From an uncultured Alphaproteobacteria bacterium (GTDB lineage Bacteria > Pseudomonadota > Alphaproteobacteria > Micropepsales > Micropepsaceae): a stretch of DNA of 64,000 bases. Shown in pieces: positions 11,948 to 59,717 of the stretch; the first letter of the stretch is position 1; the number at the start of each line of letters is the position of its first letter. A program made the translations under genes and the position numbers. The stretch is from positions 1 to 64,000 of the forward strand of contig CAIUCH010000007.1 of the NCBI GenBank assembly GCA_903897605.1. The letters run 5' to 3'. The notes below the pieces were generated by a model that ran no database searches, was not told the origin of the DNA, and was given only the letters and a program-made list of their open reading frames with translations.

Positions 11948-13044
11948 CCGATTTTCGCCGCCGCAATCTGATCGTATTGGGCGCGCTGGCCATTCTCAGT
12001 ATCGCCCTCGCCGCCATCGTGCTGAGTGTCCGGGCCAAGGAGAGCCGGGCGCGTTTTGCGCCCGGCGAATTCCTGCCGGGATTTGCCACACGCGTGAAGG
12101 AGGCCGCACGGATCCATATTGTCTCCCATGACGGCGCCTTCGACATCAATTATCAACCCGCCAAGGGTTGGGTGCTTCCGGCGCGGGGCAATTATCCCGC
12201 CGATTTCGACCAGGTGCGTCACACTCTGATCGGTCTGGCGACCCTGGAGTCCGTCGAGCCCAAGACGGCGCGGGCCGACTGGCTATCCTTTGTCGGGCTG
12301 GACACGCCGCCCAAGGGCGACGGCATTGCCATCACGGTGACCGACAAATCCGATCATGCGTTGGCCGCCGTCATCATCGGTCATGCCGCCGATCTGGACA
12401 GCGCCCAGGGCGGCAGCGGCGTATTTGTCCGCCATCCTGGCGACAACCAAAGCTATCTTGCCCGCACCGTCTTCGCCCTGCACGGCAATGTCGCCGACTG
12501 GCTGGAAACCGGCGTGATGACGATCGAACCGGCGCGGCTTAACACCGTCACCATCACGCCGGCGGACGGCGCCGCATTCACGGTGATGCGCGATCATCCC
12601 TCGGACCGGGAATACAAGCTGCAAGGCGCGCCCGCGCCCAAGGGGTTGCTGATCAATCCCGTCAGCATCAACCTGATCCCCCAATTGATCACGGAATTCG
12701 CTTTTGTGGATGTCGCACCCGCCTCGCAGATCGACTTCTCCAAGGCCGCGCATCTGACCGCCCATACCTTCGACATGCAGAATGTCCATATGGACGCCGT
12801 ATCCGTGAAGGGCGTGGTCTGGGTCCGGATTTCGGCGCAAGCCGATCCCGGCACCCCCACCATGCAGCGCCAGGAAGCCGGGATGATTACTGCGCGCGCC
12901 GCCGGATGGGCTTATAAGCTGTCGCCGGACAAGGGGCGGCTATTGCTGATGAAGCGCGACGAGCTCATGACCAAGGCGGATGCCGGCGGGCCCCCGGGCC
13001 AGCCTGTGCTGCCGCCCGGCATGTCCTTTGGCGCACCCAACTGA
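11944..13044 (+). CDS. DUF4340 domain-containing protein
   Basis: The 366-residue protein has an N-terminal membrane anchor (about 9-29) and a periplasmic region with repeated beta-rich DUF4340 modules, including GWVLPARGNYPADFDQVRHTL-like sequence. DUF4340 proteins habitually follow GldG-like genes and are thought to be an accessory subunit of the same transporter. It overlaps the GldG-like gene by four bases and the Rieske oxygenase gene by one base. The function beyond this context is unknown. Confidence 0.85.
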   Translation: MTDFRRRNLIVLGALAILSIALAAIVLSVRAKESRARFAPGEFLPGFATRVKEAARIHIVSHDGAFDINYQPAKGWVLPARGNYPADFDQVRHTLIGLATLESVEPKTARADWLSFVGLDTPPKGDGIAITVTDKSDHALAAVIIGHAADLDSAQGGSGVFVRHPGDNQSYLARTVFALHGNVADWLETGVMTIEPARLNTVTITPADGAAFTVMRDHPSDREYKLQGAPAPKGLLINPVSINLIPQLITEFAFVDVAPASQIDFSKAAHLTAHTFDMQNVHMDAVSVKGVVWVRISAQADPGTPTMQRQEAGMITARAAGWAYKLSPDKGRLLLMKRDELMTKADAGGPPGQPVLPPGMSFGAPN

Positions 13045-14156
13045 TGGCCGCTGAAGCCGAACCTCTGCGTGGCCTCTGGTACATGCCTGCGCTGGCGTCC
13101 AGCTTGGCGCCAGGACAGATGCGCCGCGAAATGCTGCTGGGCGAGCCGCTGCTGCTAGGCCGCATGCGCGACGGACAGCCATTCGCCATGCGCGATATCT
13201 GCCCCCATCGTGGGGTGCCGCTGTCGGCCGGAAAGATCCTGGCCGAGAACACCATCGAATGCCCCTATCATGGCTGGCGCTTTCGCCGCGACGGTGTCTG
13301 CAGCGCGATCCCGTCGCTGGTCGAGGGCCAGGACCTGGATCCCAACAAGATCCGTGTACGGCATTATCCCGTGCGCGAGCAGGACGGCCTGCTCTGGGTC
13401 TATGTCGCGGCCAAGAACGAAGCTCCGGTATCGGAGCCGCCGAGAGTACCAAATGTGGATTCCCGGAGTATCGGCCAGGAAAAGTACGGCCCCGACTCGG
13501 AAACACGGGGCCGTGATTTTCCGTCCGGCCGTGCGACCAACCAAAAACCGCGCTGGACCGATATCCAGGACTTTCCCTGCGGGATCGACCATGCCGTGAT
13601 CGGGCTGATGGACCCGGTCCATGCCGCTTATGTCCATGACCATTGGTGGTGGAAACGTCCGCAGCGCCTGAAGGAAAAACACTACGCGCCCTTGCCGACC
13701 GGCTTTGCGATGACGCCCCACAAGCCGTCAAAGCCCGCGTACAAGCTGCTCGGCGACGTCACCACCGAGATCACCTTCGAGCTGCCTTCCACCCGCTTCG
13801 AGATCATCAAGGGCAAGCTGTTCGGCAAAGCCTTCACAGTGATCGGCCTGACGCTCTGCACGCCTCGGGATGGCGAGACGACGTCCGTCATCCAAGTCTT
13901 TTACTGGCCGGGCTGGCTGTTCTTCATCCGCCCCTTTTTCATGATCTTGGGCCCCACCTTCATCGCCGACGACCGCAAGATCGTGGAATTGCAGCGCGAG
14001 GGCCTGAGATTTTCCCCGAATCTGATGCTGATCCAGGATTCCGACCAGCCGGCGATCTGGTACCACCGGGTCAAGAAGGCCTGGGCGGAATCGCTCGAAT
14101 CCGGCACGGAATTCGTCAATCCTGTGCAGGAACGGATCCTGCGCTGGAAAAGCTGA
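13044..14156 (+). CDS. Rieske [2Fe-2S] aromatic ring-hydroxylating oxygenase, alpha subunit-like
   Basis: The 370-residue protein has a Rieske centre CPHRG (Cys53, His55) and CPYHGW (Cys73, His76), then the mononuclear iron region IDHAVIGLMDPVHAAYVH with ligands His193 and His198. This is the VanA/PobA-like class of one-component oxygenases that demethylate or hydroxylate aromatic or cyclic substrates using an external reductase. Residues about 142-165 are foreign: they are encoded by a palindromic repeat (13467-13540) read in frame between the Rieske and catalytic domains. The gene ends the Gld-type ABC operon (one-base overlap). No dedicated reductase is adjacent; the ferredoxin pair at 29.6-31.1 kb is a candidate by inference only. 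Confidence 0.88.
   Translation: MAAEAEPLRGLWYMPALASSLAPGQMRREMLLGEPLLLGRMRDGQPFAMRDICPHRGVPLSAGKILAENTIECPYHGWRFRRDGVCSAIPSLVEGQDLDPNKIRVRHYPVREQDGLLWVYVAAKNEAPVSEPPRVPNVDSRSIGQEKYGPDSETRGRDFPSGRATNQKPRWTDIQDFPCGIDHAVIGLMDPVHAAYVHDHWWWKRPQRLKEKHYAPLPTGFAMTPHKPSKPAYKLLGDVTTEITFELPSTRFEIIKGKLFGKAFTVIGLTLCTPRDGETTSVIQVFYWPGWLFFIRPFFMILGPTFIADDRKIVELQREGLRFSPNLMLIQDSDQPAIWYHRVKKAWAESLESGTEFVNPVQERILRWKS
13467..13540 (+). repeat. Palindromic coding repeat, copy 1 (inside Rieske oxygenase)
   Basis: The ends are GGCCAGGAAAAG (13473-13484) and TTTTCCGTCCGGCC (13517-13530), an imperfect inverted repeat. The middle has its own perfect 9-base inverted repeat, ACGGCCCCG (13486-13494) and CGGGGCCGT (13506-13514). 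Read in the host frame it encodes SIGQEK, a variable stretch, and FPSGRATN. The same ends recur at 18907-18974 (opposite strand) and 39822-39874. Confidence 0.85.
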
Positions 14157-18228: not shown

Positions 18229-18903
18229 TCAGACGATGCCAAATCGCTTCACGCGCGCGCGATAGCTTTCATATTCGGGATAGGCGGCGCGCAAGACGCG
18301 TTCCTCGAAGACCGTGCGCAACACCTGCAACACGGTCACGCCCAGCGCCAGCATCGCCGCCCAGGGTTGGGCGAACTGGATGGTGGTGCCGAGCAGGGTC
18401 AGAAACTCCAGCACATAAAGCGGATGCCGGGCCCAGCGATAAGGTCCCGACGTCACCAAGCTGCGCGCTTCCGGCATGATCGAAAAGGACTTTCCCAATC
18501 GCGCCAGCACCACGGCCGAACCCAGACCGCCCACCAGCAACAAGGCGACGGCAACCATTTGCCAGGGCAAGGACAGGCTGACCGGCTTCAAATGTAGAAT
18601 GCCGACGCCCAGAAAGGTGCCGGCAAAGCCGCAAAGCCGCGGCAACACGCCTGGCGAACGGCTCACGGGCTCCGTCCGCACCACGATCAGGTAAATCAAC
18701 AGGAGATTGAACGCGACGGCCGCGAACAGCGCGAAGAATCGCATATTCGCCAAGAGGCTGTCGGGCTGCATCAGAACCGCCCGGGCATCGGCGGCAAGAT
18801 TGGGCCGCAGTTGCACCGTGCTGTAACCGAACCACAGAATTAGCGGCAGGCCCGCTATCAGATCGTAGAGTTTGCCGCGGCGGAATTCCTGCAGGTCAGT
18901 CAT
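18229..18903 (-). CDS. Isoprenylcysteine carboxyl methyltransferase / phospholipid methyltransferase-like membrane protein
   Basis: The 224-residue protein has about five membrane helices and the ICMT/PEMT-type C-terminus: SGPYRWARHPLYVLEFL, a helix, then EERVLRAAYPEYESYRARVKRF. This signature binds S-adenosylmethionine and the substrate headgroup at the membrane face. In bacteria such proteins methylate phosphatidylethanolamine, or have unknown substrates. Its ATG overlaps the TAA of the upstream methyltransferase gene (TAATG), so the two form an operon convergent with greA; the stops are only four bases apart. Confidence 0.8.
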   Translation of the reverse strand: MTDLQEFRRGKLYDLIAGLPLILWFGYSTVQLRPNLAADARAVLMQPDSLLANMRFFALFAAVAFNLLLIYLIVVRTEPVSRSPGVLPRLCGFAGTFLGVGILHLKPVSLSLPWQMVAVALLLVGGLGSAVVLARLGKSFSIMPEARSLVTSGPYRWARHPLYVLEFLTLLGTTIQFAQPWAAMLALGVTVLQVLRTVFEERVLRAAYPEYESYRARVKRFGIV

Positions 18904-19772
18904 TATTTGGTCGCACGGCCGGACGGAAAACCGCTTCGCGCATTGGGCGCTTCACACTTTTCCTGGCCGATGCTCCCTTCTCGTCTCGCCACCAGCGCCA
19001 CCATTTCCGCGATCTCCGTGAAGCGCCCTTCCGGGGAAAGCGCGCGCAACCGGTCGCGCAACTCGGCTTCGAAATCGTCGGTCCGCGTGCCCAGCTTTTC
19101 GGACGACGTGGTGGATTGCGAAAAGGCCCGTCCGACAATCTCGTCTTCGGTGATCGGTTTGCGGATGGTCACGCTCAGTCCGTCCAGCTTCGTGAAGACG
19201 GATTGATAGAGCGATGTCTCATAGCGGCGATGTCCCAGCGCCTTGCGCTCCGCGATATGCGGCTGGGCGGCGCGGCCATATCGATCGCCCACCTTGCACA
19301 AAATCTTGAACCACTGATTTTCAGGGAGCACCGGATGCGCATCATGGAAGAACACCACCGCGCCGCCTGGAACCAATATCCGGTCCAGCATGGCGAGAGT
19401 CGCCAGCCGGTCCATCCAGTGAAACGCCCGGCCGATACTGACCACACGGTAGGGACCCATCTGGGGCACAAGATCGTAGGAACCGCCCTGCCAAAGGGTA
19501 AGCGTTACACCGGCAGTCTGGGCAGCCGCCTGCGCCGCCGCCAGCATCCGTGGCTCGGGATCGGCGGCGGTGACGTCCATGCCGGCTCGGGCGAAGGGCA
19601 GCGACAACGATCCGGGGCCGCATCCCAGGTCCAGCACCGCGTTGCCTGGGGCGAGCCCCAACAACGCCACCACGCGCGCGATCAGGCACTCGGGGTAGCT
19701 CAGCCGATAACGCTCATAATAGGGTACCGCGCTTTGAAAACGGCGCGGTTCATAGGGAACGGGTCGGTCCAT
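18903..19772 (-). CDS. Class I SAM-dependent methyltransferase with repeat-derived C-terminus
   Basis: The 289-residue protein has a Rossmann methyltransferase core: motif [13 protein letters not shown] (about residues 46-57), acidic loop DVTAADPEP, and motif IV region [11 protein letters not shown], typical of the Methyltransf_11 class. The substrate is unknown. The last 24 residues, GSIGQEK...FPSGRATK, come from the palindromic repeat at 18907-18974, and the stop codon TAA lies directly after it, overlapping the next gene's ATG. The repeat appears to have replaced or extended the native C-terminus. The enzyme may still fold, since the catalytic core ends well before this tail. Confidence 0.85.
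18907..18974 (-). repeat. Palindromic coding repeat, copy 2 (C-terminus of methyltransferase)
   Basis: On the minus strand it begins AGCATCGGCCAGGAAAAGT and ends TTTTCCGTCCGGCCGTGCG plus ACCAA. The ends match copy 1 base for base over most of their length, while the middle is different. It is read in the same frame as copy 1, giving SIGQEK, a variable stretch and FPSGRATK, followed at once by TAA. Confidence 0.85.
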
Positions 19773-39400: not shown

Positions 39401-39814
39401 GCGGCGCTGGCGGATGAAACATTGCGGCTGTTGGACGATCCACAATTCGCGCCCGCCTTTGCACCGTCCAGCCGCGCGGAAGTCGCCTTCCTGGCGGCCC
39501 TGCCCGAACTGGGTCCCGGCGCCCAGGTCAATGGCCGGGTGGACCGGCTGGCGGTGACGGACACGGAAGTTCTGATCCTGGATTTCAAGACCAACCGCCC
39601 GCCGCCTGCCCATGAAGAGGATGTCAGTCCCATTTACCTTGCCCAGATGGCGCTCTACCGCGCCGCCGCGGCCCAGATTTTCCCGGACCGGCGAATCGAC
39701 TGTGGCCTGGTTTGGACCGATGGACCCTCCCTGATGCGGCTTTCCGACGCCATTCTGGACCGCCAGATGGCCCTGATCCGCAGACGGCTTGACCCCGAAG
39801 GGGCCCATTCCTAG
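36428..39814 (+). CDS. addA: Double-strand break repair helicase AddA
   Basis: The 1128-residue UvrD/RecB-like protein has Walker A ANAGAGKTYTL, motif Ia FTKAAAAEM, Walker B LIDEAQDTS, GDEKQSIFSFQGADP, motif V TVHGAKGLEADIV and VALTRARDRLYVCG, and a C-terminal nuclease with ILDFKTNRPPP. It is the helicase-nuclease partner of AddB. The ATG overlaps the addB stop. A palindromic repeat begins eight bases after its stop codon. Confidence 0.95.
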   Translation: MSGNLASDPSLSAWVAANAGAGKTYTLANRVARLLLADARPEKILCLTFTKAAAAEMQHRLFRQLGEWAMLPDARLAENIRAIGAEPDDLPKARRLFAQALETPGGLKVLTLHAFCQIVLARFPIEAGVSPGFDVLDDASARSQIAEARQIVLERAGDGETRLHDAVARLATEAGEARLNDILQAALGNDRRKMDRFFEGLNGVPFEDAVWRAHGAERGTDAAQDFCNALRGEIELLRAVRGWLHDGGKLDAEAGTKVAKILALDLAPESFALLRDWLMTKDGAPRKKLAAKALADARPDLLAYLTDLQERFCRAEDRQRAARAAQLAEAALTLIDAMRREYAHAKARRAVLDYDDLIVKTLALLERGNAAQWVLYKLDNGIDHILIDEAQDTSPEQWAIVRKLTEEFFAGAGRDRKLARTVFAVGDEKQSIFSFQGADPTQFDINRNYFERLAAQAEQPFVDQPLVTSRRSAPEILQFVDQVFLGTTARAGLTSRDQPITHLAHRAAAKGGIEFWTALAPGPVVAVDPYLPVDAVQPDSPIVVLAQRIAGQIQTWLDSGATLPGHERPITPGDIMILLPRREPFGGEIIRQLKLRNIPVAGADRITLTEQIAVMDLMALGRFALQREDDLNLASLLRSPLCAVSEDDLFALCHGRTGTVWQALREQKNQTRFEAAHIFLSEMLARADFAPPFEFYGHALTALDKKHDLVARLGPESTDAIEEFLSLALAYERMHTPSLEGFLDWLARGNTQIKRDMERGRNEVRVMTVHGAKGLEADIVILPDTTALPDPPSRKGHLLYGETGVLFPLAEGDAPQSVKAAKCAEEDQTLREHRRLLYVALTRARDRLYVCGFENRRGVRDGSWYALARAAAEALGRPIIRHGEAGSAFGHVEDETRASEAAEAPTARPLPGWMTRPAPPEQVSPRLIRPSDALDMPEQAPLSPLTAGPGRFKRGNVVHALLARLPDVPAEERRALAIRYAMARGFDADAAAALADETLRLLDDPQFAPAFAPSSRAEVAFLAALPELGPGAQVNGRVDRLAVTDTEVLILDFKTNRPPPAHEEDVSPIYLAQMALYRAAAAQIFPDRRIDCGLVWTDGPSLMRLSDAILDRQMALIRRRLDPEGAHS

Positions 39815-39821
39815 ATATAAG

Positions 39822-39874
39822 AGCGTCGGCCAGGAAAAGTGGCAAACCGGTTGTCCGTCCGGCCGCGCGGTCTT
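39822..39874 (+). repeat. Palindromic repeat, copy 3 (between addA and trxA)
   Basis: AGCGTCGGCCAGGAAAAGTG, a short middle, then GTCCGTCCGGCCGCGCGGTC. The arms match copies 1 and 2; the middle is shorter and the right end has diverged (GCGCGGTCTT for GTGCGACCAA). Here it is intergenic, in the trxA leader; if translated in the phase of the other copies it would read SVGQEK...CPSGRAV. Confidence 0.8.
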
Positions 39875-39901
39875 AAAAGTGCGAGTTAAAGGACAGCAGC
39901 C

Positions 39902-40219
39902 ATGCCCATCAAAGTCTCGGATGCCTCGTTTCAGGCCGATGTTCTGGACGCCACGAAGCCGGTCCTGGTGGATTTCTGGGCCGAATGGTGCGGCCCCTGC
40001 CGCATGATCGCCCCGGCATTGGATGAACTGTCCGCCGAGATGGGCGACAAAGTGACCATCGCCAAGATCAATATTGACGAGAATCCGCACGTCCCCACCA
40101 AATATGGCGTGCGCGGCATTCCCACCATGATGATCTTCTCGCAAGGCCAAGTTGCGGCGACCAAGGTCGGCGCCTTGCCCAAATCCAAGATTAAAGAGTG
40201 GATCGAATCCTCGATCTGA
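39902..40219 (+). CDS. trxA: Thioredoxin
   Basis: The 105-residue protein has the active site WAEWCGPCRM and the conserved cis-proline region GVRGIPTMMIF, standard for thioredoxin 1. It reduces cytoplasmic disulfides using thioredoxin reductase. AAAGGACAGC precedes the ATG. It follows addA, as in many alphaproteobacteria, but a palindromic repeat occupies most of the 87-base gap. Confidence 0.96.
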   Translation: MPIKVSDASFQADVLDATKPVLVDFWAEWCGPCRMIAPALDELSAEMGDKVTIAKINIDENPHVPTKYGVRGIPTMMIFSQGQVAATKVGALPKSKIKEWIESSI

Positions 40220-59632: not shown

Positions 59633-59717
59633 CTTCTGAGCAGGGTTGCCTAGCGACAGCGTAGGCAACGCGCGGAGCGTGCGCCTATCACATGAGCACG
59701 CGCGACGAACTCAGAAG
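59633..59717. ncRNA. Structured intergenic element (three-way junction)
   Basis: An outer eight-pair stem, CTTCTGAG (59633-59640) with CTCAGAAG (59710-59717), encloses two hairpins: GTTGCCTA/TAGGCAAC (59645-59652 and 59662-59669) and GCGTGC/GCACGC (59677-59682 and 59696-59701). All three stems are perfect. It lies between the cyclophilin and the convergent ptsN gene, so it may be a 3' terminator structure, a small RNA or a repeat unit. No named family is recognised. Confidence 0.5.

Follow-up and report, generated by a model that had tools for sequence, protein, structure and literature searches.

A dispersed palindromic repeat of Alphaproteobacteria, probably a non-autonomous mobile element, lies mostly at gene ends and in a few genes adds in-frame protein segments

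The window, the whole 64,000-nucleotide stretch of DNA analysed here, carries three copies of a short palindromic element. One lies inside a gene, one forms the end of a gene and one is intergenic. The scores given below refer to R1, a covariance model of the element built from eleven copies.

13044–14156, plus strand: host gene 1, a Rieske [2Fe-2S] oxygenase of 370 residues (Pfam PF00355, E 2.9e-21)
13461–13542, plus strand: element copy 1, 82 nt with a long apical hairpin, lying in frame within the Rieske oxygenase gene (R1 62.7 bits)
18903–19772, minus strand: host gene 2, a class I SAM-dependent methyltransferase of 289 residues (Pfam PF13649, E 2.1e-14)
18905–18980, minus strand: element copy 2, 76 nt, encoding the C-terminal 22 or so residues of the methyltransferase (R1 72.6 bits)
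39816–39876, plus strand: element copy 3, 61 nt, intergenic (R1 64.6 bits)

Direct reading of the three copies bears out the original prediction that they have common ends and differing middles. All three contain the arms GGCCAGGAAAAG and CCGTCCGGCC; GGAGC (or GGAGT, AGAGC) stands before them and GYGCGACCA after them, the latter replaced in copy 3 by CGCGGTCT. When the window was scanned with R1, the three copies scored strongly (E 3e-20 to 4e-17) and the next best match had an E value of 0.02. Three or four copies per 64 kb had been noted; the three stand, and the R1 search of the 64-kb window gave no convincing fourth. The only match to Rfam at gathering score in the window is a tRNA, weak matches on the element falling below threshold.

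Copies 1 and 2 are read in the same phase, as first noted, giving (S)IGQEK...FPSGRAT, with the correction that copy 2 forms a C-terminus rather than an internal segment. Copy 1 encodes the peptide SRSIGQEKYGPDSETRGRDFPSGRATN. Rieske orthologues align to the host protein as separate pieces, at about residues 7–137 and 168–370; the copy 1 segment is missing from all 12 orthologues, and the linker is variable there. In an AlphaFold2 model, residues 142–164 have pLDDT below 50 and lie between two better-modelled domains, which fits a flexible segment. Methyltransferase orthologues match the host protein to about residue 266 only, and all eight end where copy 2 begins. The new stop codon of this gene, TAA, overlaps the ATG of the next one. 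An addA-like gene ends with its stop (39812–39814) a few nucleotides before copy 3, and a thioredoxin-like gene starts behind the copy at 39902.

The same element is abundant in the rest of the genome (2.79 Mb in 60 contigs). Covariance-model searches with R1, on which the genome counts rest, found about 42 copies with conserved ends at E≤0.02 and 39 at E≤0.001, within the tens to hundreds per genome that had been forecast. The exact two-arm pattern occurs 11 times and the single arms 26 and 22 times, against zero for each reversed pattern; the three window copies are therefore not a chance resemblance. Nearly all copies measure 52–103 nt, a length to which flanking positions of the model contribute a few bases, and 60 nt is the commonest length. 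The general layout is GGAGC…GGCCAGGAAAAG, a variable tip, TTTTCCGTCCGGCC…GCGACCA and an A-rich tail, which together form an imperfect hairpin. No relevant paper was found when the open-access literature was searched for the literal element sequence.

Most copies fold into a two-step stem. The outer pairs end in CGGCC/GGCCG; an unpaired A opposite GUCC interrupts the stem, which continues with GGAAAA paired to UUUUCC. Beyond this point the apical hairpin varies freely in sequence and length between copies. The core contains at least 11 pairs with an internal bulge, and the tips are about 10–35 nt long. In an alignment of 84 copies from many genomes, 10 of the 12 modelled pairs show changes on both sides, compensated cells in the stem number 28 as compared with 1.0 in shuffles, and shifting the partner by one base lowers paired cells from 98.9% to 55–65%. 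The RNA folding proposed as a check was strong for the window copies, with z about −3.8 for two of them and −1.6 for the third. Outside the stem, GGAG on the left and GCGACCA plus about nine A-rich bases on the right are conserved, after which the composition returns to background. The terminal GG..GC and GC..CC are paired in most folds, giving the short, terminal inverted repeats that are a trait of MITEs. A mean of 5.2 of the six reading frames is open per copy as compared with 3.6 in shuffles, an excess that partly reflects one shared consensus, the copies not being independent.

A second short palindrome, GTTGCCTACGCTGTCGCTAGGCAAC, stands alone at 59640–59675 on the minus strand of the window and is also contained in the variable tip of some copies of the element. 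It is present at L065, L087, L175, L197, L207 and other loci, and is apparently another small repeat family.

The placement of 184 distinct copies, of which 179 could be assessed, was surveyed by open reading frame and codon score together with homology checks; the codon model was trained on 21 window ORFs, which makes the survey numbers approximate. Most copies are intergenic, and about half adjoin a stop codon closely. Where the upstream gene is co-directional, its stop lies within 6 nt of the left end in 42 of 82 copies, compared with 4.3% of random flank positions; at the right end, a convergent stop lies within 6 nt in 32 of 67 copies, compared with 3.4%. Genic copies are the minority, 7 of about 42 in the window's own genome when RlmN is counted as three. 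A strict codon-score coding test undercounted them and missed the radical-SAM case described below; checks by ORF, homology and solved chains took its place.

The element occurs in frame in seven unrelated genes, one of them the C-terminal fusion of the methyltransferase. At least five hosts are in the genome of the window, where the inserts add about 20 to 55 residues to conserved enzymes. In RlmN, three tandem copies encode repeats of a 17-residue sequence, 54 residues in all, and the protein has 66 residues where the solved chain of E. coli RlmN (3rf9) has 10. KsgA is longer than the chain of 4jxj by about 30 residues, which fall between positions 142 and 145 of that chain. The MATE transporter carries the element in another frame (SARKS), and the RlmN copies use the RPGK frame; an Smr protein and a radical-SAM protein carry the element in relatives. 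In-frame insertion into unrelated genes, the behaviour that had been likened to the Rickettsia palindromic elements (RPE), is thus seen in seven hosts, but it is a minor fate of a mostly intergenic repeat and is not confined to the phase first noticed. All genic copies lie in the sense direction of the element (7/7 hosts) and all three sense frames are used; with n=7 the orientation bias is no more than suggestive (p about 0.016, two-sided binomial). An antisense candidate, L071:2588, was rejected as an extended ORF between divergent genes.

Head-to-tail tandem arrays with periods of about 54–84 nt were observed in RlmN of this genome (L021/L022/L028, G000:C38:5383-5550) and also at L066, L090, G018:C160 and G286.

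Filled and empty states of the same site can be compared between sister species. The joined flanks of 17 copies were searched in three sister genomes, which gave six clear empty intergenic sites; the pair L098/L023 brings the number to seven, at 80–94% DNA identity. At four sites a stop codon is retained whether the element is present or not. The element follows directly after the kept stop codon at L052/L259, L089/L256 and L098/L023. At L060/L255, the four-base ATGA, an overlapping stop and start, is present on both sides of the insert, and therefore both genes keep their signals. Wherever the junction is clear, the A-rich tail is missing from the empty site and so came with the element. A possible target duplication of about 4 nt (ATGA) is seen at one site; elsewhere none is obvious, and next to the junction some of the empty sites have diverged. 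The pair L093/L265 was dropped as an empty site because L265 keeps a remnant of the right end.

The radical-SAM gene is the cleanest insertion case. It is filled in three genomes (G031, G032 and G033) and empty in the genome of the window, at 92% amino-acid identity, and in all other aligned orthologues. The 12-nt sequence GATGAYGGGTGG stands on either side of the insert, but this part of the gene is repetitive in its own right. Together with the 12 Rieske orthologues, the eight methyltransferase orthologues and the seven intergenic sites, this gene supplies the empty orthologous sites that the original prediction had called for. In G033 (L285, around 600–720) the element has in turn received roughly 40 nt in frame, which hold two small hairpins, so that one insertion is nested in another.

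The distribution of the element is patchy. Among 18 genomes of the same genus, eleven give one match or more at E up to 0.001, nine of them with 4 to 81; seven congeners hold 19–81 copies and others of the genus hold none. Across the class, under stricter filters (E up to 1e-6), 20 of 387 genomes and 13 of 263 genera match. An exact-pattern scan of species genomes returned 61 stretches, whose records are titled as Alphaproteobacteria, as subgroups of that class or as Proteobacteria MAGs. On plasmids, mostly of Rhizobium and Sinorhizobium, a repeat that is about 85% identical to the element is common (446 records).

Taken together, the segments are very probably copies of a non-autonomous mobile palindrome of REP/MITE-like kind, whose scarcity of stop codons would make its rare insertions into genes tolerable. 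The mobile unit would span about 55–100 nt, with 5′ GGAGC, the covarying two-step stem, the free apical hairpin, 3′ GCGACCA and, last, about 9 nt of A-rich tail. Some machinery would recognise the hairpin and the ends and insert them with no long constant target duplication. Most surviving copies sit exactly at gene 3′ ends and add the hairpin just behind the stop codon. Where a copy has entered a gene in the sense direction with the frame preserved, its sequence, poor in stops, leaves the gene open. The open frame is evident at the sequence level; its product, if translated and compatible with protein function, would be an insert of 20–55 residues, probably flexible. In the window, the Rieske protein would have gained its linker insert in this way, and the methyltransferase its new tail. 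Flexible placement may explain why such inserts are tolerated, and copies at gene ends may bring some benefit. In arm searches of four genomes, in which unpaired arms were not followed singly, no separate transposon ends were evident and no autonomous relative was recognised. Since neither a transposase nor active transposition was found either, the case for mobility rests on comparative evidence, which suggests that the element may be actively mobile.

Other explanations were weighed against this reading. That the segments are ordinary protein sequence, palindromic at the DNA level by chance, agrees with the open frames and with nothing beyond them; it is refuted because the same DNA is also found intergenically, is read in more than one frame, recurs in proteins unrelated to each other and is absent from orthologues. 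A reading with a real though minor claim holds that the copies are cellular regulatory hairpins (mRNA 3′-end stabilisers or terminators) selected at gene ends and spread by recombination, the genic copies being accidents. Stop codons adjoining tightly on both sides and a structure kept by covariation are what such hairpins would show. A copy number running from 0 to 81 within one genus, clean presence or absence between sister species and tandem expansion inside RlmN all argue in the other direction; and because the hairpin is followed by no U-run, the element cannot be a standard intrinsic terminator. Mobility and a function at gene ends can coexist.

The bulged hairpin of near REP size, the tandem arrays and the position behind stop codons also recall RAYT-driven REP systems, in which a Y1 tyrosine transposase mobilises the hairpin, as in Enterobacteria and Pseudomonas. 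The genome does encode one Y1_Tnp protein (L012, G000:C42:16751-17077), but no copy of the element lies within 1.5 kb on either side of the gene, and position frequencies before the stem reveal no conserved 5′ GTAG tag. The copy-rich genomes G006 (34 copies), G007 (81), G009 (45) and G010 (19), which are 92–100% complete, have no Y1_Tnp match, and G003 and G004 have six and five matches and zero copies. A RAYT is not a likely mobiliser because several of the genomes richest in copies lack Y1_Tnp, which is most frequent where there is no copy; this explanation is mostly refuted and we regard it as improbable. Direct common descent with RPE is likewise improbable. The behaviour is the same, a hairpin with in-frame genic copies in Alphaproteobacteria, but RPE are about 105–150 bp (PMC2229807, PMC10969869) and the element is shorter; RPE-4 and RPE-6 are CGTC-type REPs whose stems begin with AT (PMC3733652), a feature that the element lacks, the comparison being with their description and not with RPE sequence.

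The non-autonomous mobile palindrome can be given a more specific, and tentative, form: a RAYT-independent hairpin with an A-rich 3′ tail, present in many alphaproteobacterial families and moved by an unrecognised mobiliser that targets the junction behind stops, might create new peptide segments in enzymes such as RlmN and KsgA as a side effect. Exact post-stop placement in genomes with no RAYT gene points to such a further mobiliser. In-frame palindromic inserts have so far been seen largely as an oddity of the obligate intracellular genus Rickettsia; here they occur in a different lineage, one known mostly from metagenome-assembled genomes. With empty and filled states available in sister species, the birth of protein segments from mobile hairpins becomes countable and testable.

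The closest known relatives are the palindromic repeats of Rhizobium and Sinorhizobium. These are about 85% identical over 45–47 nt, have the same arms (CCAGGAAAAGTG...CGGTTTTCCGTCCGG), carry GAGC-like bases before the stem and TGCG...AAAA after it, and match R1 at 40–53 bits (E 1e-15 to 2e-11); in two annotated examples the repeat comes directly after the end of a gene. Their outer stem, in contrast, is TTCC/GGAA. They may belong to the S. meliloti REP elements (PMC2873474) or to the RIMEs and A/B/C palindromes (PMC2573895), Sm-repeats being another candidate name. The suggestion that the family is undescribed therefore holds in part: it is apparently unnamed, but these similar repeats are common, and in-frame palindromes outside Rickettsia have been catalogued (PMC3733652).

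RPE, of 105–146 bp (PMC2229807) or about 150 bp (PMC10969869) with many in-frame insertions, are likewise palindromic, dispersed and in frame in unrelated genes, where the insert is likely tolerated as a flexible segment. The element differs in length and host, is mostly intergenic at stop codons and uses several frames. Intragenic GTAG and CGTC repeats occur in many species, and RPE-4 and RPE-6 have been equated with CGTC REPs (Di Nocera 2013, PMC3733652). Like the element, CGTC REPs are mainly alphaproteobacterial hairpins with a CCA-like tail, no dedicated transposase and some copies in genes. Their 8–9 bp stems start from AT and enclose loops of 4–5 nt (PMC3733652), whereas the stem of the element is longer, bulged and starts with G/C, and its tip varies in length. 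CGTC REPs are defined by an unpaired terminal CGTC, TGTC or CCTC followed by A-T pairs; the left end of the element reads GGAGC[AG]NCGGCC, and the bases there vary and partly pair. GTAG REPs associated with RAYT are also small bulged hairpins behind genes that form tandem arrays, but the element has neither the GTAG tag nor the RAYT association. It is small and apparently non-autonomous like MITEs; no parent transposon and no constant target duplication was found for it, the arm searches covering four genomes. The best reading is of a new and apparently unnamed family within a known kind, one that works like RPE and falls outside the definitions of CGTC and GTAG REPs.
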